Shown: piece by piece, positions 15,591 to 57,677 of the stretch
How positions within the stretch are numbered: position 1 is the first letter of the stretch
Layout: each line of letters starts with the position of its first letter
Assembly (NCBI GenBank): GCA_008694505.1
Contig: VZDJ01007754.1
Location: forward strand, 47,023,509 to 47,087,508
Reading direction: 5' to 3'
Length of the DNA stretch: 64,000 bases
From: Cyanoderma ruficeps
Taxonomy: Eukaryota; Chordata; Aves; Passeriformes; Timaliidae
Notes under the pieces: generated by a model
Seen by the model: the letters and a program-made list of their open reading frames with translations, nothing else
Database searches by the model: none
Told to the model about the DNA's origin: nothing
Position numbers and translations under genes: made by a program

Positions 15591-15778
15591 CTAATCATAG
15601 AACACTTGGTAGCTGAAGTTGTCAGACTTGATCCTGAGGTTGTATCTTCCTGTCTTCCTCTGGTACTGGAAAATGAGAAGGGTCACAACTCCCAGCACAA
15701 ACCCAAACACAGCAAGGGCTATGAGGATGATGTATCCAATTGCCATGCCAGCCTCCTTCTTTCTCTTCGAATCAGATG
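15591..15778 (-). CDS. UMODL1: UMODL1 last coding exon: transmembrane helix and cytoplasmic tail, open
   Basis: After a T-rich acceptor (tttttttag) in phase 1 the frame reads SDSKRKKEAGMA, then a hydrophobic helix IGYIILIALAVFGFVLGVVT plus LLIF, then QYQRKTGRYNLRIKSDNFSY, QVFYD and TAG at 15591-15593. The YQR..GRYN..I.S.NFSYQVFY tail is diagnostic for UMODL1. The exon is fully intact, with 61 complete sense codons plus stop. The dibasic KRKK just before the helix is a plausible ZP-family processing site; that is inference. Confidence 0.92.
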
Positions 15779-18254
15779 CTAAAAAAAATATAACAATAAA
15801 AAAGAAAATTAAAAATCAAGAGGTGAAAGAAAAAAAACTTTGAAATTCCTGAATCTTTTACTGGGAGGGAGGGGAAACAAGGCCTGAATATGAATTAGCC
15901 AAAATGCCAGTACAGAATTGTGCTACAGGAGTGTATCAGCCTTCTGGGGAGGGTGATTCTCATGGAGAGGGTGTGAGGACAGACCATGTTCTCTTTTTAC
16001 ATGCCAGAATAGAGTCCCTGCAGACATGAGTGTGACTTTTAGCTAAAGTAAGAATCAAAGAACTAGTACTGGTGACTTTTTAAAATGCTGCCTGACCTTC
16101 AGATATACTTTAGAGGTGAAGCATTCCCCTATCTTAATCCTGCCTCCATTCATCTGTGATTATAAAAATGCCTTGATTTGCTTTTATCATAGAAGTAACT
16201 GCTCTGCAGGCACAGAGTATTTGGGGAAGGATTCTCTGTGTGTGCTGGGTCTCTGAGCTCCCAGCTGAGCCAGCAGAGATGTGGCTGGGGTGGTCAGTGG
16301 AGTGACACTGGCTTGGTCACCACGGGCTCAGAGCTGCACCTGAGCAGTCCTTTAGAGCCAGCTGAGGTTGTCTGCAGTGTCTGCACAAGTCTGGCGGACA
16401 GGACCTGCAGGAGACCTGTGCTCTGCTGGAAGAGCACCCAGACTCAGAGGGGAAGAGAAAAACCAACACCAAATACCCCAGTGTGGGCAAGAGTCATGTC
16501 CCACATTGCCAGCTGTCTGCCAGGGCACCACAGATCACACACAGAAAATGTTCTCCTGGTTCCCTTTTAACCACTCCCATATATTTGTCCAAATCTGCAA
16601 GCAGAAACCCCTCTCCCTTTATTATTATGCCTCTCTTCATGTTTGTGCAAGTTTTTATCATTCCTTCCTGCAAAGGCTCCATGCACCTACAGAAACATGC
16701 ATTTGTTTGCTTACATTTTCAGGACAGCACTTGTTTTGCCAGGCACTTGTGTGGTACCTGAGGTACACAGAAGATAAATAAATACCACTGCACACATGCC
16801 TGCAATTAGAGACAAGGGTTTTGACCAAAGGACTCTGCTGGCAGCCACAGAGGTCAGTAAAAGCAGTGTTCAAGCTAGAGAACATCGTTCCAAGACAGGC
16901 CAAAGCAGTGCTGTGTAATATATTTAGTCTCATTTTTGAATTTCAGCATAAAACAAAGGAGTAAAGTAGAACATGCACAGTGGAAAAGGCAGCCTGTAGC
17001 CAGACACAGAGCTGAGGACGTGCAACAGTGGCTTTTGCCATCACATGTGACCAAGTGTTGGCAGAGCAGGTAAAGTTTTTCATGTTTCACTGCAGCACTT
17101 ACACCTGTTAGTACCTGACATCATAATTCATGTTAACCCCTTCAACACAGAGATGCAGACCACTGAAAATGTGGTGTGATTATCCAAACTAGAAATAAGA
17201 GACAGCATCCAAACATGTCACCTTTTCCTAGAAATCCACCTAGCACAACACAAAGAAAGCTCCCCTGACCAGAAGCTCTTTTGGGAAATGGCCATTTTTC
17301 AAAATTAGAAATGAATCAGGGTCTCCAGCAAAAATGGGAGTGAGAGCTACTTGTGGTAAGAGCTAAACAAAGAATTGCATTAATTGCTTTATTTTTTTTT
17401 TAAAGAACTAATTCAGAAATGAGCGCTGAGGACCTATTTGAATAGACCGTGTAATGGAAGAAAAATACATTCTTCTAAGTCAGAGTCAGTTCCTAGGTCC
17501 AAAAGAACATTATGGACTGTCTATTCACAGTAGCCACGAGTTAAGACTGATATTGGTGAGCCAAAACACTCTCAATGAGTGTTTTACATTAAGAAGTTAT
17601 AAATGTAAAGCTGGAGGGGGCCAAATGACTGAAAACATGACAGGGCACGGGTGCCCCTGTAAGCATCACTCAGGTTAAATGCAGAAAAAGCAGGTGCATA
17701 ACAAATTAGACCTTGCTTGCCCCCAGTGCTGGTGTTTGCCCTCAATTAACCTGTGCTGCACCAAATTAACAAAGGGTGCTGTGCATCAGCTGAGCTCTGC
17801 CACTTCCCCTCACTGTGGTAATGAAGTCAATGCCAGGGAGCCAAAGGAAACACAATTAAATCTCTTACATCCTCTGATTTGGGACTTCAGAGCCCCAAAC
17901 AATTGCAGACTAACAGCAGTGCAAACACTTGGGAAACCGACTGTGATCTGAAAGATCGACTCCGCTTTCACATTTTACAATTGAAATAATTGTTTGGTTT
18001 GGTGGTTGTTGCACTTGTTACCCTGTGCAAACAGCCACACAAAAGCACTTCATCTTCCTTTCTACATTCCCTTGACAACCTGATAGTCCCTGCTCCGAGG
18101 AGGGCACGTGCTTCTCCACGCTGCCACGTGGCTCCAGCAGGAATGCCTGCTCCCAAGGAATACAGAAGGGCACAAAAACCTTGTGTGCCACAGGCCTTCA
18201 GGTTCCTTTGCCTGTACAAAATAACCTCGGCATGATAGTCTGTTCACAACTCAC
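15779..18254 (-). other. UMODL1 intron before the last exon
   Basis: This intron separates ZP exon 5 from the transmembrane exon, with gtgagt donor and tttttttag acceptor. Several overlapping ORFs at 16238-16933 on both strands have no recognisable domain and are treated as chance. I see no RNA gene or mobile element. Confidence 0.6.
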
Positions 18255-18342
18255 CAGCTGATTTACACAGTGGTCCCCAGGATGTTCTGTGCAGGGAGAA
18301 GGTTTCTCCAGCCTTCAGGAGTCAAGCTCTTGCCTGGCATCT
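18255..18342 (-). pseudogene. UMODL1: UMODL1 ZP-module exon 5, with nonsense codon
   Basis: An 88-base exon, phase 0 to phase 1, follows cgttgcag and precedes gtgagt. It reads RCQARA, stop, LLKAGETFSLHRTSWGPLCK, SA. The family has C..FRLL.....T...H..SWGPL.RS at this place, so TGA (18322-18324) sits where Arg is expected, a likely CGA-to-TGA change. SWGPL and the splice phases make the assignment good although the first few residues are diverged and there is one extra codon. It links the ZP module to the transmembrane exon. Confidence 0.8.
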
Positions 18343-20923
18343 CTGCAACGATCAATTCAAACTCCAGCAAGTCATGTGGTTTACTAATTCAAAAGACAAA
18401 GCTTTCTGATGAGCTTGTGAAAGCCCAGGGCTGCTCTCACCGCTGGGCTTTTGTTCTTTAATGTTATGCTCTGTTAAACTGAAATTAGCACCAAAAGGAA
18501 GTCCAAAAGAAATGGCATCAGGGAAAAATCAGTATAAAATCTGTAATTAGTCACACCAGTACACGCTGCTGTGAACAGACATTTCACACAGACAACCTTT
18601 TCATTAACTTTCTGTTTATTTTAGAGAAACCTTATGGGAGAATAAGTTTATCACTAATGCCAGGGTTTTGGAAGCACTTTTGTTGAGATGCTTCTGCTGC
18701 CCATGGCAGGCACAGCAGATATTGCAACCAGCACCAGCAGAAGCAGCAGCAGCTTTCAGAGCCTGCTGAGCCATGTGTCATTCTGGAGAGACCCACAACC
18801 TCAGTGACCCGTGAACCATTAATCTGGGAACTACAATCCCTGTCCTGTGGGATGCTGGGGATCAGCTCTGTGTGAGCAGCACTTGCACAGGCATTTTCTG
18901 AGCACTTCTTTTTTGTTTGCTGCCTTTTTTAAGTCGCAGCCTAAAGGTCCCTGATGGGAACCAAAACCTACTGGCATTATTCAAGGGTACTGTGGCTCTC
19001 CTGGAAGGGCACAAAAACCCCCAGAGAAATGGCAGCATCATACCATGAGCAATAAAATCAGCAGGGTGTCTTAGCAGCTTGTTTACACCAGAATGTCTCA
19101 CCAGTGTTACCAGTTTGGCTGCACTGGAAAATCTACAATCCACTGCCTGCAACAGTGTCTTCAGCTGGGTCACCCCCCCAGAAATACCCATGTGGTTATT
19201 TATGACTTGGCTCTGCCCACAAATAGCTTTCCCAGGCAGGTGGATCTGTTAGAGAAGACATTTATGTAGTTGCTCCCTGATGACAATGAATTTTTGGTTC
19301 CACATGGCCATGGAGCAGCCACGTTTCACCAAATATCTGCATGGTGGTGGCACGTCACTCCTCTTCCCATTCAAAGGAATTTTTCCTTACTCATTTCTTA
19401 CTATTTTCTCCTTAGCCAGTCCATTTTTTTTTTTCAACTCTAAACTTTAGAGCACCTCACACTCTTCCACAGAGAAAACAAGGCATAAGTAGACTGAGTT
19501 AGAAGAAATAATACAAGATGTAAGTATCAAGTGTGTGGGTGAAGAGCTGAGTTAAATCTGCCCTGAAGCAAGTCACTATTCCCCTGAGAAACAGATCAGA
19601 GGGTCAGATACCAGACCTAAGCCACTTTCCCAGCCATCTTTCATTATTTACAAATATCCTCTGTTCTTGATCATCTTCCTGGGTCTTTGCACCCTCTGCA
19701 GCTCTTCCTCCCTTCTCTGTAAAAGCCATTGCTCACCCTGTGTAGATGGGGCTGGTACTTGTCTTACCCTCTTACCCACATCACAATTTAGCCTCAGTCG
19801 AAGATCCTGAATTCACTGACTTCTCGTAGGGGTGCAATTTGCATAGGAGAAAGAAAAATACATCCTATATATATATATCTTTTTNTTCATACTCAGCTGC
19901 CAAAACTGGAGCCATCTTACCATTGTCAGTCATGTTTCCTGTCCCTACTTTTTTTTGGTGTTTGTTTTTTTTTTAATCTGGAGGAAGCCTTAAACTTCGA
20001 GAAAGGAAACAAGCATCTTCTGGTAACCTTTTTAAATCCTTTAAGAAGAGATAATTTGCTTTATAATGGGTTTAAACCGTGTTATTTAGAGCTAGAGGAA
20101 AGTGTTAAACAATGGGGGAACACCAAACTGCTAATGAAAACATCCTCGATAGAAAAAGAGGCAGGAAGGTTGGCAGAGGAAGAGGAGAATTCCCAAGTGT
20201 CTGCTAGTAAGAAAAAAAAAAAGCCATCAGTTAAACGTATTTTTTCTTATTTCTATGGTAGCAACACATTTTTAGATAAAGCTGTGTATCACTCACTTGC
20301 AAGTAAAAAGAAACAATGCAATGCTTTGTAGCACAGACAATTAAAAACTGCAGTTCTTATCAGAACATGGCTTGGTTTATTGCTTTAAAAATCAATCAGC
20401 CTTTAAAAAGGCGTAATAAACTCTATTAAAGTCACAGCCCTAGAAGCTTAATGACATTGAGCTTCCTTTCCTGGCACCTAAACTCTCAGCTGAAGAAACA
20501 AATCTGTAGGGGATAAGAAAAAAATATATATAAATTTCCTCAGACATTCTTCTGACACTGCTACTCTGGGAGTTCCTATTTTGTGACACATCCATCTGAG
20601 CTGATACTTTTCTGACCAGACTAATTTCATTGCTTTTTAGTCATCCTTAAAATGAGTGAAAACTCCAGTTCTCAGGTTCCCCAGCTCTGCTCCACGCTTT
20701 TTTCTAGGAGGAAGAGCAACAGGAAAAAAAGCTGACACTTCCATATGGTTGTAGTGTTTCCCCACTCCTCTCTGCTCTCAGCAGAGAACAAAGGAAACCT
20801 CGAGAGTTATTTTAAATCTTGTTTGGAAACATTACTCCTTCCATTCCATTGCAGGACTCCAGATGGCACTGAGAAAAATATATTTTGGGGGTGGGGAATA
20901 GCGTATCAGAACAAAACACTTAG
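18343..20923 (-). other. UMODL1 intron between ZP exons 4 and 5
   Basis: The donor at 20923 is ctaagtg, so this intron probably would not be removed normally. It contains a single N in a TA/T-rich tract at 19885 and otherwise unremarkable sequence. A plus-strand 91-codon ORF at 20056-20331 rich in Lys/Glu has no family resemblance. Confidence 0.6.
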
Positions 20924-21085
20924 AGTCCTGCAGGTGCTTCCTGGTGACTCCAGACAAATACGAATTCTGCAGTGTAAGTAAACCACAGAGTTGTTGACAA
21001 AGGAAAAAAAAAATTCATCTTAAACTGAGCTTTGCTCGAATTCCCATTTTCCAGCAGCGTGGTGTAAGTATTTGGGATGGGACAG
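20924..21085 (-). pseudogene. UMODL1: UMODL1 ZP-module exon 4, poly-T frameshift and lost donor
   Basis: After cttctcag in phase 2 the exon reads CPIPNTYTTLLENGNSSKAQ, FKMN, then a run of ten T (21004-21013). Beyond the run the family match is in another frame: SFVNNSVVYLHCRIRICLES, PGSTCRT. Two extra T explain the shift (162 bases instead of 160). At the exon end the intron begins ctaagtg (20923 downward) instead of gtaagtg, a one-base change at donor +1. The cysteines of CPIPNTYT, YLHC, RIC and STC belong to the ZP-C part. The T-run length could be a sequencing error; the donor change is less easily explained that way. Confidence 0.87.
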
Positions 21086-21954
21086 CTGAGAAGAGAGACA
21101 GAAACCACACAGAGCAGCTAAGGCTAGAGAAAACAGGTTGTGGTTAGGGCACAGAACTTGGGTTTTAAGGTTTTCCTTCCTTTAGGAAGTCACAGCCAGA
21201 CCCTTCATGAAGCAGCTCTGGTGGTGATAAGGGGCTGCTTGCTGCTTTAATCTCACAGTAACCGAGTGGAACAGGAGATGTGTGAAGTGGTTGGAGATTT
21301 GGAAGAGTAACAGAAAGAAGGATTTTAACTTGGCTTCACCAAACACAAATTGAAATAAACCATGAAATTTAAAGGACTTGATTTTGTTACTGAGCAAAAT
21401 GACTATCCTGTATTTTAAGGTGGCAGGTGAACCTAAGAAATATGACATTGGGGTGAGATCAGGGATCCAGACAGGAACAAACCTCCTCTTTCACCAGAGA
21501 CTGCTTTAGTATCATGTGTGAGGAATTAAATTACCTATTTCTTCATTGACAAGAGGCACATAAGCTCTTGATAAAGCTGAAACCACAGAGAAACCTCTGA
21601 ACCACGGAGAAGAAGATAAAGCACCCACTTCTCAAATGCTCTTTCACTACTGACAGCCAAAATCACCTTCAAGTAACTTCTTCAGGTTAAAAGCACAATT
21701 CCATCACAAACCTCTACAGAAGACAACCAAACTCAAAAAACTTCCACAGGACCCTTTGAAATCCCTTTTCAGATCTACCTTTCTTGTTCAAAGAAGGTGT
21801 AACCAGGCCAAATAGAAAGGGACCATGGCTGTGAATGGTGAGAACATGCATGAAAGGCATTTAAAATACAACATATTATTAGTCAGTACTAATAATAATT
21901 AGTCAGTAAGACCGAAGGTATGGCTCATGGCATTTGCAAATGGCATTGCTGTAC
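21086..21954 (-). other. UMODL1 intron between ZP exons 3 and 4
   Basis: An ordinary short intron (gtacag donor, cttctcag acceptor). Nothing else recognised. Confidence 0.6.
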
Positions 21955-22189
21955 CTGCTGCTGATAAAAACAAATGACAGGGGATCCTGAATTATTGGTT
22001 GGAGTGGCCCAGCAGTCAGTGAGAAGCACCTTGAGCTTGCTGTCTGCTCTCTGCATCCCCACTGTGATCAGCACATCCTCACTGGCAGAGACACTGGAAT
22101 TTTGGGGGATTGGGGAATTTCCAATAAACAGCTGCATTTCTGTTCTGAAGTGTCCAGATCCATGCAAATCCTCAGAGATGGTGTAAAGT
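21955..22189 (-). pseudogene. UMODL1: UMODL1 ZP-module exon 3, 2-bp deletion
   Basis: Starting after gatttttcag in phase 2, the exon reads LYTISEDLHGSGHFRTEMQL, FIGNSPIPQNSSVSASEDVL, ITVGMQRADSKLKVLLTDCW, ATPTNNSGSPV. The FIG.SPIPQN.SVSAS motif and TxCWATP are diagnostic. After SPV the natural frame continues ICFYQQQ, while the frame two bases away gives TFVFISSS, matching the family's TFSFINNS and restoring the phase 2 end required by the next exon. This implies loss of two bases (CA) near 21974/21975. The length of 235 should be 237. The donor is gtacag. Confidence 0.87.
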
Positions 22190-23766
22190 CTGAAAAATCA
22201 ATTAGCCACCTTTAAAGACCACAAATTCGACTGTGAGTTTCTGCAAGTCTTAAATCAGTGCCTGTTTTCCCACGTGTTTAAACAGTGAAGGGTTATCTGC
22301 AGTCCAGGATGACAGGACACTGTTCAAAAGGAAAGGTGAAAATACATGGAGTTTTCAGCAGGGAAGGTAGAGAGCAGGGAAACACAGGTGGGAAAATCCA
22401 AAGGGTGGTTTCAGCAATTCAAACAGGACAGAGAGAAATACCTGAGTGGAGCAGAAGGGGAGCAAGACTATGAAAAGCTCAGAATAAGGACAGTAAGAGC
22501 TTAGTGCAGAAGAGCCAAAAAAAACAAAAAAAAAAAAGACAGGGAAAATCTGAACAGAAAGTGAAAGGCATGAGAAAATTATAGAGCTTAAAGAAAAGTG
22601 GCCTGACAAAGACTTTGCTGGGGAATAGGAAGGAAAATACAATCTCTGGGCAGGGCTAGGAAACAGAAACTGGATTTGGTGCCAATAGTTTAAGCACGAT
22701 GATAAGCAAGAGAGGAGGTGCACTTGTATGAAGGGAGGACACTCCCCATGAGAGAAAGGCTTGTGCTGTCACATCTTCTGTCAGCACAGCCTTGATTTTC
22801 TGTGAAGTGTGGCTCTGATTCCATTTCACTTGAAAATGGGGCCTTCCACAACAAAAAAAGGATTTGCATGATTTATCTTCTGGTTGTTCAAGTAGACCGA
22901 ATAAGGATTTGTGGGGGGTTAAAAACTGCCATTCTCAGGAGCCACACAGCAATCTGCAGGCCCATATCAGGTGGGAAGATATATGATCGATATGTTCCAA
23001 AAGCAGGAAAATGCTGTTATTGCTACAAGGGATTGCCCAGGAAGGCAATGAGGAGACAGGAATTCTGACTCCTGAACCAGCAGTTCCCAAAGGTTTATTT
23101 TCACCTGTGGTTTAACCAGCTAAAGGCCAAGCTTGTTGGACCTACTGGCACATTAGTTGGGGCAGGAGAGAAGCACAGAGGAGGGATCTCCTTGATGCCT
23201 TGGACTGGCTACCTAGAACAGAGGCTAGACAGAGAATAAAGTGGATATTTATTAAAGGCCTTTGACAAATGCCCCTTGGGCACTGCAGGAGCCTGGCAGA
23301 GGCTACAGCTGAGAGGGACGATGGTCAGGAGTTTTTCAGGCTGATAGAAGTTTGGTCTATTTGTATGTCAGAGGTTAATTGTTCAATTATAGCTTCAGGT
23401 AATGAAGTCATGTTCCCCTGGATTGCTTCTCCCCAGTTCACTTTTGTTTATACTTCTCAGGCCTGAGGCTGTGATGATGACCTTAGTTCGTAGGCCTGGA
23501 AGGATTGTTTGTCTGCCCAAACTGTGAAGAAAGCTTACTAACACTCTATATAATAGAGTTCAGAGTTATACACTAATGCAGTGCAGGATCTGAAAAACAT
23601 AAAAGCTAAAACTCAAGGCACCATTCTGAGCACAGGACTCCCAGGATGGCAGACTGCTCCCAGTGCTGTCACTGGATACAGCTACAGCCCCTGTGTTGGG
23701 GTTTTCCCAACACAGCAGCACTCAGCCACACAGCAGAATTTCAAAGCAGGAACAGTTGTTCCTCAC
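22190..23766 (-). other. UMODL1 intron between ZP exons 2 and 3
   Basis: Intron with gtgagg donor and gatttttcag acceptor. Purine-rich in 22300-22600. The minus-strand 122-codon ORF at 22355-22723 is a Ser/Phe/Leu-rich reflection of that purine tract, not a gene. No mobile element recognised. Confidence 0.55.
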
Positions 23767-23909
23767 CCTTCTGCAGTGTACCCACAGGAAGTCAAGACAC
23801 GGTTTTGAAACACACAGTGGATGGGACTGGCAATGTTCAAGTGGTGAATTATTCCCTGGGCAGAAGCATCATTCCGAAGGGTGGTTTTCACCACGGTAGT
23901 AGTCATGTT
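23767..23909 (-). CDS. UMODL1: UMODL1 ZP-module exon 2, open
   Basis: A 143-base exon, phase 0 to phase 2, follows tgtgctgcag. It reads NMTTTVVKTTLRNDASAQGI, IHHLNIASPIHCVFQNRVLT, SCGYTAEG before gtgagg. The TLRND....GIIHHL.I.SPI.C.FQN block is the strongly conserved UMODL1 ZP-N segment; IHCVF carries a ZP cysteine. There is one codon fewer than the mammalian form before the exon end (the Trp of EWG appears absent), but in frame. No lesion is seen. Confidence 0.9.
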
Positions 23910-24679: not shown

Positions 24680-25109
24680 CATCTCAACTCAGGTGCCACA
24701 GTTGCTCCAGCCCGCCTGCAGCACAACGTGGGTGCCACTGCTGGTGCTCACATTGCAGCCAGGCTCCCCCAGGAACAGGGAACTCTCTGGGATGGACTCC
24801 TGCTGCAAGAATCTCTTCTGGATTGCCAGATGATCCTCTCATTTTCACAAAACACACTCATTGAGTCTTTAATGGAAACCTCTTGGCTGGGTTTGGCAAA
24901 GGGGGCTGGAGATGCTGGAGGAGAAACATCAGGAATTGCCTTGGGATGTGTGGTGAGAGGAGTCAGCACTATGCTGGAGAACATGGTGCCCTCCAGAGCT
25001 CTGTGCTCAGCAGGAGAGAAGCCCAGTGAAGCAGGGGAGGAAACATGAGCTGGAGTTTGCAAAGATGTCACAGGTAAAATTGTGCTGTGCACAGGTTTCT
25101 TATCCATCA
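24680..25109 (-). pseudogene. UMODL1: UMODL1 ZP-module exon 1 (linker plus ZP-N start), frameshift and stop
   Basis: The exon opens with a Pro/Ser-rich linker (SPPASPAPFAKPSQEVS), then enters the ZP N-terminal part: SMSVFCENERII. The frame then shifts: the match resumes one frame over as IQKRFLQQESIPESSLFLGE, CNVSTSSGTHVVLQAGWSNC. This needs one restored base near 24828. At the end, CGT is followed by TGA (24689-24691) where the family has Leu, then a consensus gtaagt donor at phase 0. The length of 430 is one short of phase-consistent 431. ZP modules polymerise extracellular filaments. The upstream boundary at 25109 (acceptor gcaacag) is less sure than the rest. Confidence 0.87.
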
Positions 25110-27740
25110 CTGTTGCCTTCTGGCTGAAGGGAAGTGCTGAAGAGTGCCAAAAATAAAGGTACTGTTGTAATTTACATGCTCAGTTTGGTCTCACCAGGCA
25201 AAAGCAAATTCTTAGGAGGAAACTCACAGTTACTGGCAGGAAATCAGCTTCTTTTGTTCTTTTAACTTGCTCTACTTGCTGCCAAAGCTGGGGCTTTTTT
25301 TAGAAAGGAGTGAGCCCATGAGACACATACAGTGCCCATCAGTAAAGCTGAATTGCTTTATTTCCTGGCAGCTGCAATAATTGGTGTGTAACACATGTAC
25401 AAACAGCTTTTGGAAGATCAGTACTGGCACAATATCCCCCACTGGAAGTTGCTCAACAAGTGCTTGCATGTTTTTGCCTGGAGCTGTAGGAGACTGCCCA
25501 TTTCTGGCTGGGAGCATAAGCAGGAGTTTGATAAAGAAACAGGTCTCATTTGTGACCATTACTACCCAAAAGATGGGACCTTGAGCACTTTGGAAAACTC
25601 ATTTCTGGGGGATGAATGGGACAAACCTCATGCGGCAGCCCCATATTGCACTCAGTGTGTCCTGAGAGAAATGAATAAATGTGTCAGTGGCAATCTGTAA
25701 CGGTTCCAGGAAGAAAAAAGTGGGGGAAAAGGAAAGCACAGGTTCAGATCAATGTGTGTGTCAAACACCCAACAGCCAGCACAGGTCTGGGGTTACACCC
25801 TGAGTATTCACCCACCACTGACTGAGAGAGAATCAAGATAATAAATCTGTTTGCAGGGAAGCACAAACAATGTGTCTCATCTCACAAAACTGCTCTTAAA
25901 TAATTTTAGTGGGTTAACCCCCTAGTTCCCAAGCAATATATAAAATCTGTACACATCTATAAATCCTTATGGAACTGCCCAACTTCCAGAAATGCCCCAA
26001 ATGAAAAAGTCACTGATTTGCACAATAGAGGAAGGCAAATAAAAGTTGGGGTTCTTCCAGAGCTGGATTTCCCAAATCTTATTATCACATTAATATCTAA
26101 AACTGAACAAAGGTTGGTATTAATTGACAAATCATTGTGACTTCAGTAAAAAATGTTCCTTATCATTGTGGTTACAAAACCAAACATAAATTACTGAGGA
26201 AGCCCAAGAGAATTTAGCAAATTAAAGACCCATCATACATCAGCTAACAAACGACCTGAGGAAAGAGAGAAGCCAGATGAATCAGCTCATACAAAAATGT
26301 AGTTTGGAATACCAGCATTTCCTCCTTGCTGCCATACAGAGCTCAAGACACCTATCAAGTACTTTCTTTTACTTTCTCTATTACCTCTTCTGTCCCCTCT
26401 TCTTCTGCTGCTGCTAATGAAAATCACAGAGAATCTTGACAATCCTGTCTAATTTTTGTGGCAAATAGGAGAAACAGAACTGTTAAAAGAACTTTACAGG
26501 ATTAAATATTAATATAGTACATTCCCCACTCCTAAAGTGATCGGCTGCCCAAGGGGATGCTTCTAACCCCAGGGGCCTCCTCAGTTTTTCCCCCATTTCA
26601 CAGTTCTGAGGAGATGGTGAGTAAATGCCCAGCATGAGTGAAGCAGAAGGCTTGTGTGACTGATTCAGGCTGCAGTCTAGTTGCTGTCTTAATTTTTACC
26701 TGGCCAAAATTCTCATTTTTGAGAGAAAAAAAACATGCTTTTACTTCTCTTTCTCTTTCCAAAGTCTAAAACCCAGCTCAAACCAGATCACAGGTGGGAC
26801 TGAGAAAGCAGCACCAGCCACCTGCTCTGTGGGGACCTGTCCCTGAAAAAAACCCTTTATTTAGCCCAGGTTTTGCACTCTACAAAGCACTGCCACAAGA
26901 TTGTTGTGATCTTACTAATTACCAGGACATGTAACTTTCCAGATTTACAGCTGTGAGTGTAACAGGAAAAAAAATAAATAGAGCAGAGCATAAATATGTT
27001 TCTGAAGTAATTTTGCATGAGATTCTAATTGATAGCTTATAACAACATTCTTTGGACAAATGGATGTTGTCAGGGATACAATATTTGGGGTTTTTTTTCA
27101 GAGGTGACTTGTGAAACAGAATTCAGCTGCTCTTAGTCAGGAGATAGATGGGTTTTGTTAGTTACTTTAATTACATATAAAAGAAAAGAAGCTGTACAAT
27201 CAGCCATCCTGCTGGGTTTGGCAAAGCCTGAACTTCCACCTGAGCTCCAGACCCACAGGTGTGTGAGGAAAACAAATACTCCCAGTGAAGAAGAACTCAC
27301 ATGTTCATTTATTTCTTGGCATTTCTATTTCATGGATAAATTGTCACTGCAAAGCAGAGGGTAATGTGTTTTTAAATGATTTTAAGAAGTGCTAGTTATG
27401 GCTGTGTTCAGGGACTCATTTCCACTGGTAGCTTATAAACCCCTCAATCCATGACCTCTAACATCTCCTTACTTTTTTCTCTGTAAAAGGGATTCTAGAT
27501 ATTTTCAAAAAGAGCAGTTGGTTTTGTCCTTTTGGATCAGTGGTACCTCACTTCCTATGTCATCTGTGGGTGTTCTCTGAAAAACTTACTGGATGGACAA
27601 GCAGGAGCAATATAAGGAGTGAAAAAGGCTTTTCATCCATGTGTTTTACAGATATTTTCACCTCAGAAGGCACAGATTAATAACAGCTTTTATCATTTGC
27701 CTGGTTCTGAAGAATTCCTGGGGCACAAGCTGCTCCTCCC
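25110..27740 (-). other. UMODL1 intron where the third EGF exon is expected
   Basis: The family has a calcium-binding EGF exon here (DxDEC...C...C...C.C). No such cysteine pattern was found in any minus-strand frame, so it is lost, strongly decayed, or missed by eye. A plus-strand 101-codon ORF at 25395-25700 is Cys/Trp-rich at both ends but has no recognised domain; its antisense partner is also open, and both are likely chance. Confidence 0.5.
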
Positions 27741-27954
27741 CATGTATGGAGAGGCTACTCCTGTCGATGGTGAGGTAGGAGCTGTGTTCCAAGGCCTCAC
27801 AAGAAGTGGTGATGACATGGTGGACATACAGTTCTTCTGCAAGCAGCAAATTGAAACTTACCACTGTGCTCCCATTAGTGACACCCATTACCAGCACTTT
27901 AATCAGACCAGCATCCATCTGCTGGAGCACCTCAGAGGGCAGAGATTTATGCAC
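27741..27954 (-). pseudogene. UMODL1: UMODL1 SEA domain 3, second exon, donor GT changed to GG
   Basis: A 214-base exon, phase 0 to phase 1, follows ttattccag. It reads VHKSLPSEVLQQMDAGLIKV, LVMGVTNGSTVVSFNLLLAE, ELYVHHVITTSCEALEHSSY and ends SLSIH. The LP...QMDAG....V..VTNGS.VV pattern matches UMODL1, with NGSTVV at the SEA cleavage-type site. After SIH plus one base the intron should start with GT but reads gggagg (27740 downward), one base from gtgagg. A gt inside AGGAGTAG upstream is possible but poor. The open frame is therefore coupled to a probable donor loss. Confidence 0.82.
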
Positions 27955-32634: not shown

Positions 32635-32747
32635 TTCATCAACAGAGAGCTGTGCAAAGGTTTGATATTCCTCACTGCTTGTATTGCTGAAGCCTGGAGA
32701 GTTTCCCCTGTTTGTTATCCAAACTGTGACACTAAATTTCTGGAAGG
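32635..32747 (-). CDS. UMODL1: UMODL1 SEA domain 3, first exon, open
   Basis: A 113-base exon, phase 1 to phase 0, follows ttccttgcag and ends at a consensus gtaagt donor. It reads AFQKFSVTVWITNRGNSPGF, SNTSSEEYQTFAQLSVDE. It has the same length and phase as the first exon of SEA domain 2 (43992-44104), as expected for duplicated SEA modules. The SNTSSEEY...F....DE pattern matches the third SEA block of UMODL1. It is intact. Confidence 0.88.
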
Positions 32748-36400: not shown

Positions 36401-37108
36401 CACCCATCACCAAGTTTCCAGAATTCCAACACCACAAGATGTGTGCTCACTGCGGGCCGGGCTGGGGGCTGGAGAGGTGCCTGGAAAAGCTGGTGACCCC
36501 AAAGATCCAGGGTGTCCCTCAGACCAAGAGCTGTTCTCCCTTCCCACCTCTCCATCTGCTCCCAGAGCGGTGGCAATGTCAGTGCTCCCTGCGGCCACCA
36601 GAGCTCTGCCAGGGCCACCTCAAGAGCTGGCTCTGGGCACAGCAGAAGCTGCGTGAGCGCTGGTGGCTGTTTGATTTGGAAACAGCTGAACTGAAGTGAG
36701 TTGGTCTTGCCTGGCTGTGCCCAGGAGCGAGTTTGGGAGAGCAGCCTTGGCATCAGAGCTTTGCTGTGATGGACTTCCGTGCCCACGGCCTGTGCCCTGC
36801 TGGGGGGGACCCCCACGGCCATGGGGCTGCTGTCCCTGCTGAAACCCATCTGTAGGGTCAGACCTTTTCCCCAAGGGGTTAGAGGAGCACTGGTGGGACT
36901 GTGGGATGTTTGTCACCCAGGGCCAGTGCAGCAGGGAGGTGTGACTGTGCTCAAGCCGGAGCCTGCAGCAGCCACTGTCTCAATAATGGTGGCAGTGGCA
37001 GGGCTTCCTTCTTCAAGAGCTAACTCCTAGCTGGTTCTTCCTTCAGGAGGCATGGTTTCAGCCAGAAGATCCACAGTCTCACCTGCAACACAGTAAACAC
37101 ACCCTGAA

Positions 37109-37576: not shown

Positions 37577-37731
37577 GAGACAGGCCATATATACCCCTCC
37601 AGCCACAGACTGCAAAGGTACAATTATATGAATTTTATATGCTATTAAAAGCAGATGTAAAACCCCACAACTTATTCCAACGTTTCATGGCAAAAAAAAA
37701 AAAAACCCTAGATGCCAGGCCTTTTTCTCAC

Positions 37732-37869
37732 CCTCACAGTTTTTTCCAGGTCGGGATGGATTGGTATCCGTGGCTGTCTTGCACCTGCACATGTAGGAGC
37801 GCATCAGATTGATGCACTCTGCAAACACAGAGCAGTCATTCTCAGTCTGGGAAGCACATTCATCCCAGT
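37732..37869 (-). CDS. UMODL1: UMODL1 EGF-like domain 2 exon, open
   Basis: A 138-base exon, phase 1 to phase 1, lies between tcccacag and gtgaga. It reads DWDECASQTENDCSVFAEC, INLMRSYMCRCKTATDTNPS, RPGKNCEG. All six EGF cysteines are present in the usual spacing and the D-x-D-E-C start is the calcium-binding form. The usual NxxGSY is NLMRSY here, so the conserved Gly before the aromatic residue is replaced by Arg. No stop or frameshift occurs. Confidence 0.9.
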
Positions 37870-41246: not shown

Positions 41247-41466
41247 CTTTAACTGCAGTGTTTTGCTGTTCCACCACAAGCACAGAGCCCTTGTGCAGGT
41301 AGGAAAGCACTGGGGCAAACGTGGAGGTATCCACTGGAAACTCAGGATCCTGCATGGTGATCCTGAGTCTCACAATGAGGCTTCCTGCTGCCAGGGATTC
41401 AATCTGCACTTTCAGCTTCCCACATTTGTACAAGGCAGAAATGTTGGGTGCAAATGAATTTTCGAG
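41247..41466 (-). CDS. UMODL1: UMODL1 SEA domain 2, second exon, open
   Basis: A 220-base exon, phase 0 to phase 1, follows ttgctcag. It reads LENSFAPNISALYKCGKLKV, QIESLAAGSLIVRLRITMQD, PEFPVDTSTFAPVLSYLHKG, and ends NTAVK before gtaatt. The AGSLIV motif is at the place where SEA domains carry the G-S-V autoproteolysis-type sequence between two beta strands. QDPxFP.....LAP.L is UMODL1-like. The frame is intact. A CR1 copy lies about 130 bases upstream in the preceding intron. Confidence 0.88.
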
Positions 41467-43991: not shown

Positions 43992-44104
43992 CTCTGTAAG
44001 TAACAGTCTTGAAAATTCCTCATATGTTGAGCTGCTGGAATTATGGAAATCATCAGTGAAGTTGTAGTTAAAAGTCCTCATAGTAACATCAAATATCTTG
44101 GCCT
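43992..44104 (-). pseudogene. UMODL1: UMODL1 SEA domain 2, first exon, splice donor lost
   Basis: A 113-base exon, phase 1 to phase 0, after tcctacag reads AKIFDVTMRTFNYNFTDD, FHNSSSSTYEEFSRLLLTE. This matches the family's pattern of F.VT....N.N.T, NSS..Y.EFSR.LL.E. At the position where the intron should begin with GT the sequence is ctaaaa (43991 downward), one base from a normal gtaaaa donor. No in-phase GT lies nearby. The coding frame is otherwise intact, but correct splicing to the next exon (41466) is not expected. Confidence 0.83.
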
Positions 44105-45537: not shown

Positions 45538-45792
45538 CTGTTTTAACATTTTGATGGGAGATAATGGTCTTTCCACAAGTTTCATAGCTGATCTCTACTA
45601 AATACATCACACCTGCTTCCAGATGAGACACAACCACTTGCATTTCCTCTGTCTTCAGGTTTTGAACAGTTTTATTGCCCTTGGACACCCAGACTTGGAA
45701 AGCATGGTTCAGAGTGGGACTGACAAGCCAGGACATTTCAAAGCTGGTGCTGGTAACGCTGAGGACTTGATGGTTTGTAACTGCAGAGGGAT
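45538..45792 (-). CDS. UMODL1: UMODL1 fibronectin type III domain 1 exon, open
   Basis: A 255-base exon, phase 1 to phase 1, is bounded by gcaacag and gtaaag. It reads DPSAVTNHQVLSVTSTSFEM, SWLVSPTLNHAFQVWVSKGN, then SHLEAGVMYLVEISYETCGK and ends QNVKT. The pattern VLSVTSTSFEMSW (strand B with core Trp) and the L-EAG-Y-V motif are those of an FN3 domain, and the whole matches the first FN3 of UMODL1. No lesion is seen. The second residue is Pro where the family has the sixth EGF-1 cysteine. Confidence 0.9.
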
Positions 45793-46036
45793 CTGTTGCA
45801 GTCCCAGGAAGAGTTGGCACAGAAAAAAAGCAACATTTCACTTTTAAAGCCTTGTGCTGTTCTAAACCCACTACAGACAAGCACTTGGACAGTGAATAGG
45901 GGAAGGTTCTCTTTACATCAGGACAGAATCTGCCCCTCTCACACTAGCAGATCCCCTCATCCATGAACCATCCCACTAGAGTGATTGATTTAGTGTTAAA
46001 CCTATTTTTTTTCCTTTTACTATATGCACATCTGTT

Positions 46037-46580: not shown

Positions 46581-46598
46581 AGAGAGAGAGAGAGAGAG
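46581..46598. repeat. (GA)n run
   Basis: Short AG dinucleotide run. Confidence 0.85.
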
Positions 46599-47953
46599 CC
46601 CAGACAAGGACCTCTGCTGGAGAAAGCTGGGCCAGGTGAGATGAGCATCATGCTCTGTGCTAACCCACAGACCATGACATGTTGCTGCCACAGCTTCAAG
46701 TCTTTCATGCTAGTGGTTAGACTGAGGAGGAAAAGGTTGTTTTCATAAATTGCTTCAATAGAACACAAATCGTTTTAGGCCAAACACCCTCAAAGCCACT
46801 TCCCCCCTGCACTAGAGGTGCCTCAGTTTAATTCCTCTGACTTCAGCTTCAATCAGAGGCTGTGGATGAAGATCAAGAACATCCAGCCTGTCTCTCTGAA
46901 CTCTCAAAGAGCAACTTAAATCTATTTGCTCTCACAGAAGAACAGGGTGTTGTTAAAAGGATTGTAATAACTCTTGCCTGAAAGGGCTGGATCACCATAT
47001 AAACACAAAGCTACTGAGGTTTGTTCCCATCACAAATCAAGAAAACATTTATTAAAACCCAAGGTTACTTACAGCACCCAGCATCTGTAGATTGGTTGGT
47101 TATGGACAAGGGGCTTGATTTCCTTACAGAAGGAGAGCTACTGCCAAGGTTAACAGCATTTACTGAACTTGGAGTAGATGCTACAATGCTTAGGGGAAAA
47201 TTATATTATCAAAGAGTTAGAGTATTTCTAAGAAAGCAAATCCAAAATAATACCATTCATGTTTTTCACAGGAAAAGCAGCAATAGAAGTAATAGAAATA
47301 GAAAATAAAAGTATTATCATATCACAAAAGCATGAAGTAATACATTATCTTAATTTTTGAGATTAAGGGATTGTAAAATTGTTTTCTAACTAAAGCATCA
47401 AATCTGCAAGCAGTTATTCATCTCATTATCTTAAAGCCTATTAGCAGGCCCATTGATGTCTGTGGGCTGTAAGTATATTTTGCTGAACTGGTACCACAAG
47501 GAATTATTTCAGCCAGAGCCAAACTCCAGCTGCTTGCAGCAGAGAGCTCAGCAGCAGTGCAACAGCTCAGGGTGGGATCATAAACCACTGAGTCTGGGCT
47601 GCAGTCAAAACAGGAAAAAAGAAAATTGTAGAAATAATGTCATGAATTGTTTCTCGAGAGGCTGGGGAGGTACACAGATAAGTGACTTGCTCTGAGAAGC
47701 AGGAGGGTCTGAAGTTTTAGGTTTTGGCAGGTGACTAAGCACGGCTGAGGGTGAAATAGAAGAAACAGCAAGGGAAATAAATACTCAGCATTTCCATCAG
47801 AAATAGGCAACAGGTTTGTGTGGCATTTTCTCCCAACAGGAGGAGAAGGGGCATTCATGCTCCAGAAATTCCTGCAGGTGACCCCTGCAAAGGAGCACAA
47901 AGTCCTGCAGGAACATCCTCAGCACTTCCCAAGGTGAGAACTTCATTTCCTAC

Positions 47954-48094
47954 CTTGTTTCCTTGGGCTCAGCCGGTGAGGGATGACATTGGCGTGTTCA
48001 TGCTGCGGGTGGCAGCTGTAATAACCCTCCAGGTTTACACAGCTGCTTCTCTCAGGGCAAGCATTGAATCCAGCATAGCAGCATTCATTGACAT
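47954..48094 (-). CDS. UMODL1: UMODL1 EGF-like domain 1 exon, open but missing the fifth cysteine
   Basis: A 141-base exon, phase 1 to phase 1, starts DVNECCYAGFNACPERSSC and continues VNLEGYYSCHPQHEHANV to HRLSPRKQ. DxNEC is the calcium-binding EGF signature. The first four cysteines are present. The second Cys of the usual CxC after the aromatic residue is absent (YSCH instead of a C-x-C-H pattern), and the sixth Cys, expected at the start of the next exon, is replaced by Pro. The frame is open and both splice sites (cctag acceptor, gtagga donor) are good. Confidence 0.87.
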
Positions 48095-48925: not shown

Positions 48926-49121
48926 CTTGCACCTCCATGTCAATCACTTCATACACTCTCTGCACCATGGCCTTCAGGGAGGAGGAAACCTCTGCCAGAG
49001 GAGCTGGCTGATGGTGCATTCCCAGGAGCAGCTGGGAGGCCACTGTCCCAGTGTAGATGTCCCCACGGTGACTCTGGATGTGGTGCACAGAGACATTCAG
49101 GGGCTGCAGTGCACCAGTGAC
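48926..49121 (-). CDS. UMODL1: UMODL1 SEA-like block 1, second exon, open
   Basis: A 196-base exon, phase 0 to phase 1, follows a pyrimidine-rich acceptor (ttttccag). It reads VTGALQPLNVSVHHIQSHRG, then TVASQLLLGMHHQPAPLAEV, and ends MVQRVYEVIDMEVQ. The RVYEVI..EVQD ending just before the EGF exon is characteristic of UMODL1. The donor is gtcaca, weaker than consensus but with a valid GT. No stop or frameshift is present. It follows directly from the exon at 50316-50422. Confidence 0.87.
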
Positions 49122-50315
49122 CTGGAAAACAGGGCAGCAAACCCTGGAGCAAGCACCAGGTTCATTTCCCAGCACGTGAATTCATATTGTGATAATAACA
49201 ATAAGATGAATTATTATGGTTGTTATCATAACCTGAGTGTAGAGAGAAATTCGGAAACCACGGCAAAGTGGTAACTGTATTTATGCAAGGTGAGTTCTTA
49301 TCTTCACATTTCACAACAGATTTATCTTACAGAAAGGCCAAGCTGAGGGGGGTGTGGAGCTGATCTCAAAATGCTTTGGCAGAAGGTGTAACCCAGCAAG
49401 AGGTGGGAAAAGTCCTGCTCTGCAAAGTCTGGGTGGATTACAGTACATTACACAGGTCACTACAATTCACCTGCAATAAAGCTGTCCAACTCCTCTGGCT
49501 TCAAACAGCTAAATGGACTGCTGGCAAAGGGAACAGAAAGAAAAAGAGGAAAAGCAATAGACTCAGGATGAGGGGTGGGATTAAGAGCCACAGAGAGAGC
49601 CCAGAGACACCAAGCCATCCCAACAGAGAGTCAGGAAGGAGACAAGGGATCTGCTGCTGGGCTGAGCAATGAGTCAGTGGAACACACAGCAGCACTCTCT
49701 GAGTAGCAGCTCATTGAACAGCTTCACCTCAATTCCCCATTTCTTGAGTGTTTGACTTTCACATAGCTTGTTTTAGATCAAGATATAAAAGCCTTGGTGG
49801 ATCCTTGCCTCTACTCCCCACTACATATCAACAGAGCCCGGGTATCATGGCTTTTTAGGGTATGAGAAGGGGAAATCAGACAGGAGGAAGAATTACACTC
49901 ATGCTGTTGTTATCACTTCTATTTTGCTGCCCATCAATGCCAGCAGATTACAGCAGATAGGTTTGCCTTGGAAAGGCTTACCTTAAAATTCCATATCAGA
50001 AAACATCATCATGCTTTGAAGGTCTTGAAGTCTGGTCAGTCTGTCATAGGCCCAAAACTGAGCTGAGACAGAGCTGGGGCCAGCACTAATTAAGCAGGAA
50101 AACTCCCTTTATTTCAAAATGTTTTTAAATTGCCCTTGGAAGAGACCTGAAAAATTTTCAAAAGAATCTGATAAATCAATGTTACTTGCATTGCTTAAGG
50201 ATGCAGCTGACATTGAGAAATAGAGAAATAATCAGAAACAGGGCCAAAAAAAAAAAAAATCAATCTGGCAGAACAAAGGGGGAGCAAAGAGTGGCCCCTA
50301 AGTTTTTGTACATAC
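49122..50315 (-). other. UMODL1 intron within SEA-like block 1
   Basis: gtatgt donor and ttttccag acceptor. No element recognised. Confidence 0.6.
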
Positions 50316-50422
50316 CGTGGAGTGCAAAAGGCGGGAATGATTCAGAAGGTGGGAATCCACACGGGTTAATTCATTAAAAACCATTTTTGCCAGCACTGTC
50401 ACGTTGTACTAGAACGTCCTCC
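50316..50422 (-). pseudogene. UMODL1: UMODL1 SEA-like block 1, first exon, with nonsense codon
   Basis: A 107-base exon, phase 1 to phase 0, lies between ctgcag and a gtatgt donor. Its frame reads RTF, stop, then YNVTVLAKMVFNELTRVDSH and LLNHSRLLHST. In the family a Trp precedes YNVT; here that codon is TAG (50409-50411), a single base from TGG. Splice sites and the rest of the frame are well kept, so a single G-to-A change explains the stop. The peptide is the N-terminal half of the block between the WAP and first EGF domains. Confidence 0.85.
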
Positions 50423-50829
50423 CTGCAGCATAGGAAATAAAACAGCCAAGTCATCTGAGGTCTGGTGCTGCAGAAGGCAACAGAGCTCCAGGGAGACTCT
50501 GAGGAGACAAAGCAAGATTGAACTTGGCAAATGTGAGGGACCCACGAGCAGCCACCAGCAAGGGCCTCCTCTGCCATATGCCACAGGCAGAGGAGCCAGC
50601 CGAGGAAAAGGAGCCAAGGGAGCTTTGCTGGACCCACAGCACCCACACACCACTCAGTGCTCATGGGTGCAAGCACTGAAGCTGAATATCCTGGAATCCA
50701 TCCACGGCAGACTCCTGTATTTGTTTTAGGAAGAGCTATGGTAACAGTTTTCCTGCCCACTCCCACCCTCAGGAGGGAAAATTAAGGATATTTCTATTAG
50801 AAGCAGCGTTGAATTTATCAGTAACATAC
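50423..50829 (-). other. UMODL1 intron after the WAP exon
   Basis: Short intron of about 0.4 kb. Overlapping minus ORFs at 50374-50766 run through the neighbouring exon in wrong frames and are not real. Confidence 0.6.
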
Positions 50830-50991
50830 CCTCTGGCATGGGATCCACACAGCCTGCTCCTTTGGATGAGCTGCAGCATTTTTTCAGCCCTGGACATTCA
50901 GTATCGAACGTGCAAGGGCAATCAAATGTTTCCATATCCTTCACTGGACAAATACCAGGTCTTGAGGCAAATGCACTGGATCTATTGAGTG
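50830..50991 (-). CDS. UMODL1: UMODL1 WAP (four-disulfide core) exon, open
   Basis: The acceptor ttacttag and donor gtatgt bound a 162-base exon, phase 1 to phase 1. It reads LALNRSSAFASRPGICPV, then CPCTFDTECPGLKKCC, then GCVDPMPEG. The ECPG..KCC core and the following cysteines are the hallmark of the WAP four-disulfide core, a small fold often found in protease inhibitors. ASRPGICP just before it is strongly UMODL1-like. The reading frame is intact. Joined to the EMI exon, the split codon is G plus CA (Ala), matching the Pro/Ala-Leu-Asn junction expected for the family. Confidence 0.88.
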
Positions 50992-53900: not shown

Positions 53901-56900
53901 AGGAGCATTTTTTTCACTTTGTAGTTGTTTTTTTTTCTGAAAACCTTCAGAAGTTGTACACACAAGGCACACTGATTAAAGCACAGCTTTAACATGGCAA
54001 AGCAGGTGCTCTTAAGAAACTCCACAATTAAAGCTGTCTTGGGCCTTCTTATTTCAAGGTATTTTTGTACATGTGTGCTTAAAAACAAGCCTTCATCATG
54101 TGTGATGCACTCCTTCCCTCCCTAGCTGGGGATCAGGCAGGGTTAGATGGCAGATAAGCAGCTCTCTGGTTTCATCTCATGCTGGAAAGTGGGCAGCAAG
54201 CCAGCCACCAGGAGAAATAACCATACCATCCATCCAGGCAGCTGGAAACAAGCCTGGAGATCTAGATCCTAGCTCTACCTAAAAGACAAGATGCTGGGAG
54301 AAGTTTTGTATGGTGAAACAACCTTTCAGGGCCGTGGGTTTCACAGGCCCATGAGCCTGACCCTGCAGCCCTGTGCCCCAACCACACAAGTTGTTAAAAG
54401 CAGCACTAAGCACCATGAAAATCGGAATAAATTTATGAAAAAATTAAAACTGCACCCAAGGTGTCTGAAAGCAGGTCTGAAACCAACACAGAATGGTTTG
54501 ATCTCAGCTTCTCTGCAGCTCACTTGCCCATCTGTGAAAGACACAAGAAGCTCCCTCGCTTTCCACAGCCTTTGTGATGACAAATTGCTGCCTGTGAATC
54601 CCTCAGGATTCACCTTAAGAGGTGATAAATAATTCTTTACTCAGTGAGAAGCTGAGCAAAGCACTGAATGTGGAGGTCAGGATGGCACACTCCGGGCAGC
54701 TCCTCATCCCTGGGCACTGGGAAATGTGGTCCTTGGGGCACTGCAGAGCTGGATCGAAAAGAGTTCACTGATCTGCATGCATGGGCAAAAAGAGAGGAAA
54801 CAAAGATTGTTTTACTTAATTCTACCTTATTAATCAATTCCAGCACTTCCTAACTTTTAGATATTTAACTTTCCAGCTGTTATTTACAAATGTCAAAGTC
54901 ATTTGTGTGTGCACCTCTAACACTATCCCAATGGATAGACACACAACTAGTGAGAACTACCAGAGCAACGTGACCAGTGATCTAGACACTTTTTTCCCAA
55001 CAGTAAAGAAAAAATATAAGCAGGGCCTGCTGTATCCCAGGCAGGGCTAAATGTTTCCTTCTAGGAAGAGAAGGTGAGGAGTGGGCCAGGAACAGGCTGC
55101 TGTGAAAGGTCATGGAGACCTTTCCACTCCTGGCAGGATGGAGAGCACGCCAGCATGGATAACGTCAAGAAGAAAATAACAGTGGTTCAACAGCGAGCCG
55201 TGCAGTAATTTCTGCAGTTCCAGTTTCTCTTCTCATCATTTATTTAAGACTGTGTCTAGACACTGCATTACCATTCACAGAATTTATGACTAATGCCCTG
55301 AAAAGCAAAGATACCAGAATAATGTAAACATGGAATTCACCTAGAAGCCATACAAATCCTTAAATGGTTTTAAAAATTCCCAAATTAACTTTGACAGGAA
55401 AAAGTGTCAGGGTGACCACAGTATTTCATGGACAAACTTGCCCAGAGTGCCCATCAACAACATGGCAATGGCAGGGTGGAAATTCTGCAGCTAAGCTTTA
55501 CAAGAGATTTACAGATTTGTTCATGTTAGATGAAACAGAATCATCAACAGCTCTCAAGCCTAAAATATCCCTAGAGATGCTTTTAAGAGACAGAATTATA
55601 GTGGGAAAGAAATATTTCAAGTGTTACCAGGATTTTTTTTTCCTCCACACTAGAAGATGGTCTTGATTTTCAGAGGTTCAGAAACACCTGAATTTCTTGT
55701 GCAAACAGTGACAACCACGGTGACTTTTCCACATTTAGCTGGCACAGCTCTTTCCTTGTACTAGAGAATTTAAAAGCCATTTTCTCTGGTTGCCTCTCTG
55801 TCTTGCCATGTGACACCTACAGGCACACATGTATGCACATGTCTATATACCCAAAAGACTTCAGTGAAGTAACTTTTCAACCATAATTAGTTGTACTGGA
55901 GATTTTCCCCAGCATAGAACTGATGCTTGGAAAATAGAGATGATCAGCAGCAGATCCTTTGCCTGTCTGAGAAATCTGCTTGGGCACACAGTAATCTGCA
56001 GGTCAAATTCTGCTTTGCTGGGACTCCACAACAGCCATGGAGCCAAACAATAGCAGGATACAGTAAATTAGGAATTATGCTTTAATTTCTCTTCTCTAGC
56101 AAATCATTTTGGGGACAAGTAAAACACATTGACCATTTTTGCCTTCCCGTCCTTCTGTTAAAATCCTGCTAGACACAATATTCTACCTGTGACTGTGGAG
56201 AAAACGCCTGGGGGAAACGAAAATAAATTGGAAATTCTTTCTCAAATGCTCTGAAGCAACTTAAATGTGGGATGAACACATTGTTCTTGACAGATCCCAT
56301 GACAGGACATATGGCTCATCCCCCCCCTCGTGCCACGTTATATGATCCGGTGCAGGAGCAGGTTTGGGGACATTCCCACAGATCTGAGTCACCCAAGTCT
56401 TATGACCCAAAACGAGGGCCAGGACTGCAACAGAACCTTTCCTTTCAATCTGCTGTTCTTGTGTGTGATTATGGAAATGCCCAGGTTTATACTGAAAAGT
56501 GAAAATAGAGAAAATGCAATGTCATGCTGAAAATAGGAAACAAAACTATGTCCTGCAGAACTTTTCTGGATGACAGAATAGTTCAAAGCTGGTTTAGATA
56601 ACTCAAGATGCCTGTTCAGCTTAAAAACATCTAAATTTATCTATTGGAGAAAGAAAGTTCCTCTTCCCCAAGGAATTCCCTCCATCTGTGTCTTAAGTTC
56701 TGATAAAACTGGAAATTTCTGATTGACAGCTGGTAACCCTGATGGGGGAAGGGGAAAAAGCTTCCATCTTGAGACAAAGGTGATTAAGTCTTTCTGAGTA
56801 GAGTCTTATTAACACTCAAACGTTAGATCAGATCCACCAAAAAGTTCACCAGTTCTCAGACCTCCCACACAGCCAGAGGTAACCAAGGAAGTCCTAACAA

Positions 56901-57436
56901 AAATGGGTCCTGGTGTACTTTGGTTGGAAAGCATCTGGTACCAAGTTGCCCTGAGGTCACAGGTTGTTTTAAATTTGAACCAAAACTGGGTTTGCATTCT
57001 GGGAGCAGACCCTACTCCACATCAAAGGAGATGTTATCCCGAGTGCATCCTGAATTACTTTTGAGGAGAAAACTCCTGGTGTACATGCAGGCACCAGACA
57101 GTGAATTATTGCTCTTGGCCAGGGATAGTGGCCTGTACCTGGACAGGCAATGAGCCCTTGGAAGGCTAACAAGCAGGTACCTTCCCCAGGTTCCCCTGGA
57201 AGTTTAGTGAATTTGTGACTAGAGGTGACAAAGAGCAAGAATCAGGAGCTTTAATCTGCTATGTCTACTCCTTGCCATGTTGGACAAAGTTTACTGTACA
57301 TTATTTTAAACTCATTTATTTCAGTGAATAGGAACTTATGGCCGAGAACTGAATTCGCCCTTTACACATCTCAGCTGAAGTGAATCTTCTTCCATAAGAA
57401 GCATTTATTTCCTCTCTTAATCTGAGTAAAACTTAC
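50992..57436 (-). other. UMODL1 first large intron, EMI to WAP
   Basis: About 6.4 kb with no exon recognised. A pyrimidine-rich tract with one N is at 52481-52530. A cluster of overlapping ORFs on both strands at 53398-54088 reflects locally higher GC and has no recognised domain. Confidence 0.55.
52481..52530. repeat. T/C-rich tract with one N
   Basis: Pyrimidine low-complexity tract containing the ambiguous base at 52514. Confidence 0.85.
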
Positions 57437-57677
57437 CTAGAGAGCACTAGAGTCCAACTTGTTCGTATCCTTCACAGCAATCTGTGAGAGTGATGGTTTC
57501 AGGGACCTCAATGCTGTGAAACTGTCCTGTGGTGTGTCTGGGGACACACCATCCACGGGATCCACCCTCCACAGGAGATGTTCTTCTCACAGGACTTTTG
57601 GTAGGCAACCATTTTAAACACACTTCTGGTCAGGATGTAGTTGCACAGATGGTGCCCCAGCAGAGAGAGGCCTTTCT
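57437..57677 (-). pseudogene. UMODL1: UMODL1 EMI-domain exon, frameshifted and with a stop
   Basis: The exon starts after a polypyrimidine tract and tag, in phase 1, with EKGLSLLGHHLCNYILTRSV, continues through the diagnostic ISCGGWIPW and VCPQTHHRT, and ends at a strong gtaagt-type donor. After RT the frame slips: the match resumes one frame over as IEVPETITLTDCCEGYEQVGL. This is explained by loss of two bases (one CA unit) near 57524. Without correction, translation meets TGA at 57508-57510. In the resumed frame the conserved Tyr of GLYC is TAG (57447-57449). The length of 241 is two bases short of the 243 that would keep phase 1 to phase 1. EMI domains mediate multimerisation or protein contact. 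This exon cannot encode a complete EMI domain as written. Confidence 0.9.

Follow-up and report, generated by a model that had tools for sequence, protein, structure and literature searches.

The UMODL1 (olfactorin) gene of Cyanoderma ruficeps is, with a probability that we put at about 0.95, a unitary pseudogene: the sole locus, in its orthologous place, whose function would have been lost in the lineage of this one sylvioid songbird and which then decayed. The window, by which we mean the whole stretch of 64,000 nucleotides that was analysed (positions 47023509-47087508 of contig VZDJ01007754.1, G000:C479 in our numbering, in an assembly of 1.025 Gb), holds this locus on its minus strand. 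Compared with bird proteins, the gene carries 6 in-frame stops, 8 frameshifts, and 3 lost GT donors (17 counted lesions). We envisage that the loss of function in the sylvioid lineage was followed by the accumulation of stops, frameshifts, and splice-donor losses along the length of the gene. Probably no UMODL1 protein is made, and the normal start would give a product of only ~22-26 residues.

The UMODL1 locus and its exons

A multi-exon gene is visible in the minus-strand reading frames of the window. We searched the window by tblastn with the UMODL1 proteins of three passerines: Parus major (P0006), Serinus canaria (P0003), and Donacobius (P0001, a query without E6, E18, and E19). This retrieved E1 to E19 in order from 57678 to 15594, with matches beyond chance (3e-62 for E14; 7e-41 for one exon in the search of the whole genome). 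With the signal-peptide exon, the gene has 20 coding exons in order, from the ATG at 62351 to the last codon at 15594, and spans ~46.8 kb with its introns retained. A sequence-only reading had placed sixteen exons between 15591 and 57677, with introns and exon order kept. The placement and the preserved structure are borne out by tblastn, on the minus strand; the count was too low, and E0 was missed together with its frame break.

Pfam searches of the minus strand (one frame of 14.8-29.8 kb excepted) recovered a WAP domain above the cut-off and pieces of FN3, EGF_CA, ZP-N, and ZP-C below it; between 15 and 30 kb, scans of two of the plus strand's three frames gave no domains. The modules outside Pfam were placed by alignment to named UMODL1 proteins, and together the two sources give the order EMI-WAP-FN3-EGF-SEA-ZP-TM known for UMODL1; the labels EMI, SEA, and TM on single exons are our own reading. 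When the readable pieces were used as a protein query against a collection clustered at 90%, they matched 69 proteins from birds, other reptiles, mammals, and a caecilian. Most of these are named uromodulin-like 1, UROL1, or UMODL1, and the remainder ZP- or SEA-domain, hypothetical, uncharacterized, or unnamed proteins. Two later searches were based on the best 120 of 427 and the best 120 of 401 matches, and a near-identical protein was absent from the matches listed in all three. The exons are as follows.

62275..62351, minus strand: E0, signal-peptide exon; ATG at 62351; halves of the signal peptide in different frames; donor GT present
57438..57677, minus strand: E1, EMI module; frame break at 57525; stop TAG at 57449
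50830..50991, minus strand: E2, WAP domain; open (Pfam, tblastn, and frameshift-aware alignment)
50314..50422, minus strand: E3; stop TAG at 50411
48926..49121, minus strand: E4; open; one-codon insertion
47952..48094, minus strand: E5, EGF-like; open; extra cysteine
47073..47188, minus strand: E6; open; acceptor AG one base out of phase
45538..45792, minus strand: E7, fibronectin type III; open (Pfam and tblastn)
43992..44104, minus strand: E8, first half of SEA 1; donor GT changed to CT at 43991-43990
41247..41466, minus strand: E9, second half of SEA 1; open; extra cysteine
37730..37869, minus strand: E10, EGF_CA; open (Pfam and tblastn)
36450..37082 (low end approximate), minus strand: E11, mucin-like; stops TAG at 37029 and TGA at 36622; frame breaks at ~36939, 36908, and 36774; soft, fast-evolving
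32635..32747, minus strand: E12, first half of SEA 2; open (tblastn)
27741..27954, minus strand: E13, second half of SEA 2; donor GT changed to GG at 27740-27739
24680..25136, minus strand: E14, ZP-N; frame break at 24831; stop TGA at 24691
23766..23909, minus strand: E15, end of ZP-N; open; extra cysteine
21955..22189, minus strand: E16, start of ZP-C; frame break at 21987
20924..21085, minus strand: E17, end of ZP-C; frame break at 21015 in a T run; donor GT changed to CT at 20923-20922
18255..18342, minus strand: E18; stop TGA at 18324
15591..15778, minus strand: E19, transmembrane segment, tail, and original stop TAG (15593-15591); open

The window also contains three isolated single N bases, at 19885, 39381, and 52514.

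Disabling lesions and amino-acid constraint

Stops and frame breaks were called by frameshift-aware alignment to five passerine reference proteins. The stops at 57449 (TAG), 50411 (TAG), and 24691 (TGA) appear in all five alignments, as do the frame breaks at 57525 (or placed at 57522), 24831, 21987, and 21015; the stop at 18324 (TGA) appears in the four that cover the site. The mucin-like exon E11 adds a stop at 37029 (TAG, 5/5 references), one at 36622 (TGA, 2/5, the two with an alignment in this part), and three approximately placed frame breaks, at ~36939 (3/5), ~36908 (3/5), and ~36774 (2/5). The aligned part of E11 is free of frame breaks when compared with Sylvia (P0088, the nearest of the five references), but has a stop at 36915. 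Because of this differing result and the fast evolution of the exon, the lesion counts of E11 are soft. In E0 the frame is broken, and translation from the ATG at 62351 terminates inside the exon. Donors, read by phase, have lost their GT at 3 of 19 sites (E8, E13, E17); the other 16 keep it in phase, including those of E3, E5, E10, and E15, with that of E11 read by eye. Once E0 and E11 are set aside, the four stops, four frameshifts, and three lost donors originally reported are reproduced exactly. Overall, there are 13 frame lesions in 1290 UMODL1 codons, plus the one in E0. Six stops correspond to a neutral divergence of ~0.05-0.06 (0.02-0.14 across the models tried), which at the songbird rates we assume would mean several to some tens of million years, a figure too rough to lean on.

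At the level of amino acids, the constraint on the gene is relaxed. Otherwise invariant sites are changed at 14 of 263 positions in the window, the highest value among 73 sequences, with 2/229 in Zosterops, 0/248 in Sylvia atricapilla, and 3/245 in Chamaea of the same clade (Fisher P 2e-5). The next-highest numbers are those of Emberiza (11), Apteryx (10), and Columba (8), the first of them from a model with artefacts: that of Emberiza fucata (P0110) has several TH-repeat insertions, which probably stem from dinucleotide repeats. In a tree of 26 taxa, the tip branch of the window measures 0.103, against 0.050 for Chamaea, 0.063 for Zosterops, and 0.024 + 0.035 for Sylvia atricapilla, i.e., 1.6-2.1 times the length of its sisters'. 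It is also, by a narrow margin, the longest oscine tip in the tree of 73 taxa (0.100, followed by Elachura at 0.098, Ptilonorhynchus at 0.093, and Drymodes at 0.092), where Columba (0.118) and Cuculus (0.101) have longer ones. Where Cettia, Hirundo, and Parus share the same residue, the window differs at 76/917 sites, compared with 42/917 in Sylvia, 44/879 in Chamaea, 41/832 in Zosterops, 53/914 in Cisticola, 53/879 in Prinia, and 30/831 in Donacobius. Five cysteines have been gained at sites that are never cysteine elsewhere, with at most two such gains in any other of the 73 sequences. None of the invariant cysteines in the 73-sequence alignment has been lost in the window, which suggests that the loss is not very old.

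These data bear on two other readings of the locus. A reduced but functional locus could still yield a short product or a non-coding transcript from open exons (e.g., E4-E5, E7, E9-E10). Nine exons are indeed free of lesions (E2, E4, E5, E7, E9, E10, E12, E15, and E19; the open frames of E5, E7, and E9 rest on tblastn, the frameshift-aware alignment being off for some references). The signal peptide is broken, however, stops or frame breaks lie in the EMI, ZP-N, and ZP-C regions, donors are lost in both SEA modules and the ZP module, and the amino-acid constraint is relaxed, all of which make such a locus very improbable. Errors of assembly or consensus in a living gene are also very improbable. 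The break at 21015 sits in a T homopolymer and, taken alone, could be a sequencing error, and the window has its three single Ns; but the stops and the altered donors are scattered and look like base substitutions, and the surplus of amino-acid changes and gained cysteines does not depend on the lesions. Moreover, three control genes of the same contig (~1900 codons) align without a stop or a frameshift: the ZBTB21-like frame described below, ~230 codons of ABCG1, and ~620 codons of ANOS1. The exons of ANOS1 are present and open at 30.97-31.10 Mb of the contig (G000:C479, L029-L038) and align in 14 pieces of 38-94% identity; the one flagged TAG near them that was inspected lies within an intron acceptor.

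Copy number, neighbours, and relatives

The decay of a unitary pseudogene affects the only copy. A search of the genome with the Sylvia atricapilla protein gave 25 matches with E <= 0.01 (36 of 37 candidates scored), of which 23 fall in the UMODL1 locus; the remaining two, on other contigs, cover the ZP region at 33-35% identity. Hence, no second copy was found in the 1.025 Gb assembly; an intact one had been named among the findings that would refute the claim. There are 19 ZP-C matches in the genome; loci are available for 8 of them, and these have a weak similarity to UMODL1 (best E 4e-7, 41% over 44 residues), the other 11 being left out of this comparison.

Upstream of UMODL1, head to head on the opposite strand, is an open frame of 1058 aa with BTB and C2H2 zinc-finger domains, which we take to be ZBTB21. 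Downstream, on the same strand, are seven matches of 82-98% identity to a fragment of human ABCG1, which we take to be ABCG1. With ZBTB21-UMODL1-ABCG1 as the human order, these apparent neighbours are those expected at the orthologous position. An EGF-like piece and a long Ser/Thr-rich open frame lie between UMODL1 and ABCG1, with the same orientation as both (L012:4113-4694 and 7795-9258, minus strand). The EGF-like piece has a Pfam EGF domain above the cut-off, and its SEA label is our reading; at 22-41% identity, we rejected this downstream SEA/EGF-like gene as a second UMODL1. That the locus arose by duplication or retroposition, while a working UMODL1 lies in another place, is thus as improbable as an assembly error: the introns are retained, the window locus is the only good match in the assembly, the neighbours fit, and the ZP-C matches with loci resemble UMODL1 weakly.

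Annotated UMODL1 proteins exist for mammals, reptiles, and numerous birds. We built an alignment of 1184 columns with the window and 72 relatives hand-picked from 180 proteins. The FastTree phylogeny of these 73 taxa groups the window with Zosterops, Sylvia, and Chamaea (support 0.88), and IQ-TREE recovers the same group with 26 taxa (SH-aLRT 94.9, bootstrap 93). The one-codon insertion in E4 is common to the window, two Sylvia, Chamaea, and Zosterops only (5 of the 58 rows, out of 73, in which the motif was found). The relatives are represented by predicted proteins, and indel sizes and ancestral splice sites were not taken from their DNA. All 20 exon probes matched in the predicted proteins of 6 out of 15 relatives, including Sylvia atricapilla and Chamaea. 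The Sylvia atricapilla model (P0088) is complete with all 20 exons, apart from shorter stretches in E11. In the Chamaea fasciata model (P0103), E9 stops 18 residues short and E13 begins 8 residues late, that of Zosterops borbonicus (P0144) is without E17 and E18, and a partial model of Sylvia borin misses more than either. Where the Chamaea and Zosterops proteins cover the lesion sites of the window they read through, so these lesions are not shared at the protein level. The gaps in the two models may be annotation gaps or early lesions.

Two other models deserve mention. The Prinia subflava model (P0127) is labelled LOW QUALITY PROTEIN, is partial and without the WAP exon, and is possibly another eroding copy. 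The Donacobius model ends at E17, where the window has lost a donor that Donacobius may lack as well. The idea that Donacobius shares the lost E13 donor, as its model runs past E13, was rejected, since the models of Cettia and Hirundo run past E13 likewise.

Overall, the sequence-only reading of a lost sole copy, as opposed to retroposition or a few assembly errors, is upheld, and the complete model of a bird of the same clade, Sylvia atricapilla, adds to the case. Besides the exon count, we refine its scope: UMODL1 was lost inside a single sylvioid clade and not across passerines generally.

Comparison with known systems

The locus combines an orthologous position with introns and exon order kept, several independent lesions, no other copy in the assembly, intact orthologues among the predicted proteins of relatives, and relaxed constraint at the protein level, as unitary pseudogenes do. 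Processed pseudogenes have no introns, and here there are 20 exons over 46.8 kb; duplicated pseudogenes have a parent copy, and the assembly search found none. The event is thus of a familiar type: a gene with annotated proteins in many birds has very probably become a unitary pseudogene. No report of UMODL1 loss in a bird was found among the titles and abstract beginnings that our searches of the open-licence PMC literature brought up; a turtle paper mentions UMODL1 and gene loss (PMC13221643). The function of UMODL1 is little known. In the chicken, the gene is among 25 pituitary-enriched genes tabled, at 1.3-2.55 FPKM (PMC5148799). Another paper (PMC8874799) describes olfactorin as anosmin-1-like: in mouse cells it acts on the migration of GnRH neurons, and in zebrafish, where the orthologue has been studied, on olfactory axons. 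The same paper reports expression of UMODL1 in mouse oocytes, early infertility in mice overexpressing it, and the lack of any identified ANOS1 orthologue in mouse and rat (PMC8874799).

A wild bird without UMODL1 would be a natural knockout, raising the question of whether the gene is dispensable or covered by anosmin-1. The loss may have been tolerated because anosmin-1, the gene for which this bird retains, shares in the role of olfactorin, and there may be a trade-off between UMODL1 and ANOS1. A bolder version, which we consider unlikely, is that the loss or its first steps are shared by the wider babbler clade, the gaps in Chamaea and Zosterops being lesions, and that it is reciprocal to the absence of ANOS1 in mouse and rat; olfactorin and anosmin-1 would then be mutually replaceable, either being losable while the other remains.

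Three known systems frame these results. Sylvia atricapilla UMODL1 (P0088) has the same exon order and modules as the window, with 87% identity over 1144 compared sites, but its model has all 20 exons, whereas the window has 17 counted lesions. Unitary pseudogenes such as primate GULO are sole copies that decay in place with introns and neighbours kept; UMODL1 in the window is alike in this in-place decay of the sole copy, in a different gene and lineage. The case of mouse and rat is similar in that one of a pair of structurally related WAP/FN3 proteins, linked to the development of GnRH neurons and the olfactory system, is absent, but it is the mirror image in detail: there, an ANOS1 orthologue was not found and Umodl1 is present (PMC8874799), whereas in this bird UMODL1 is broken and ANOS1 is present.
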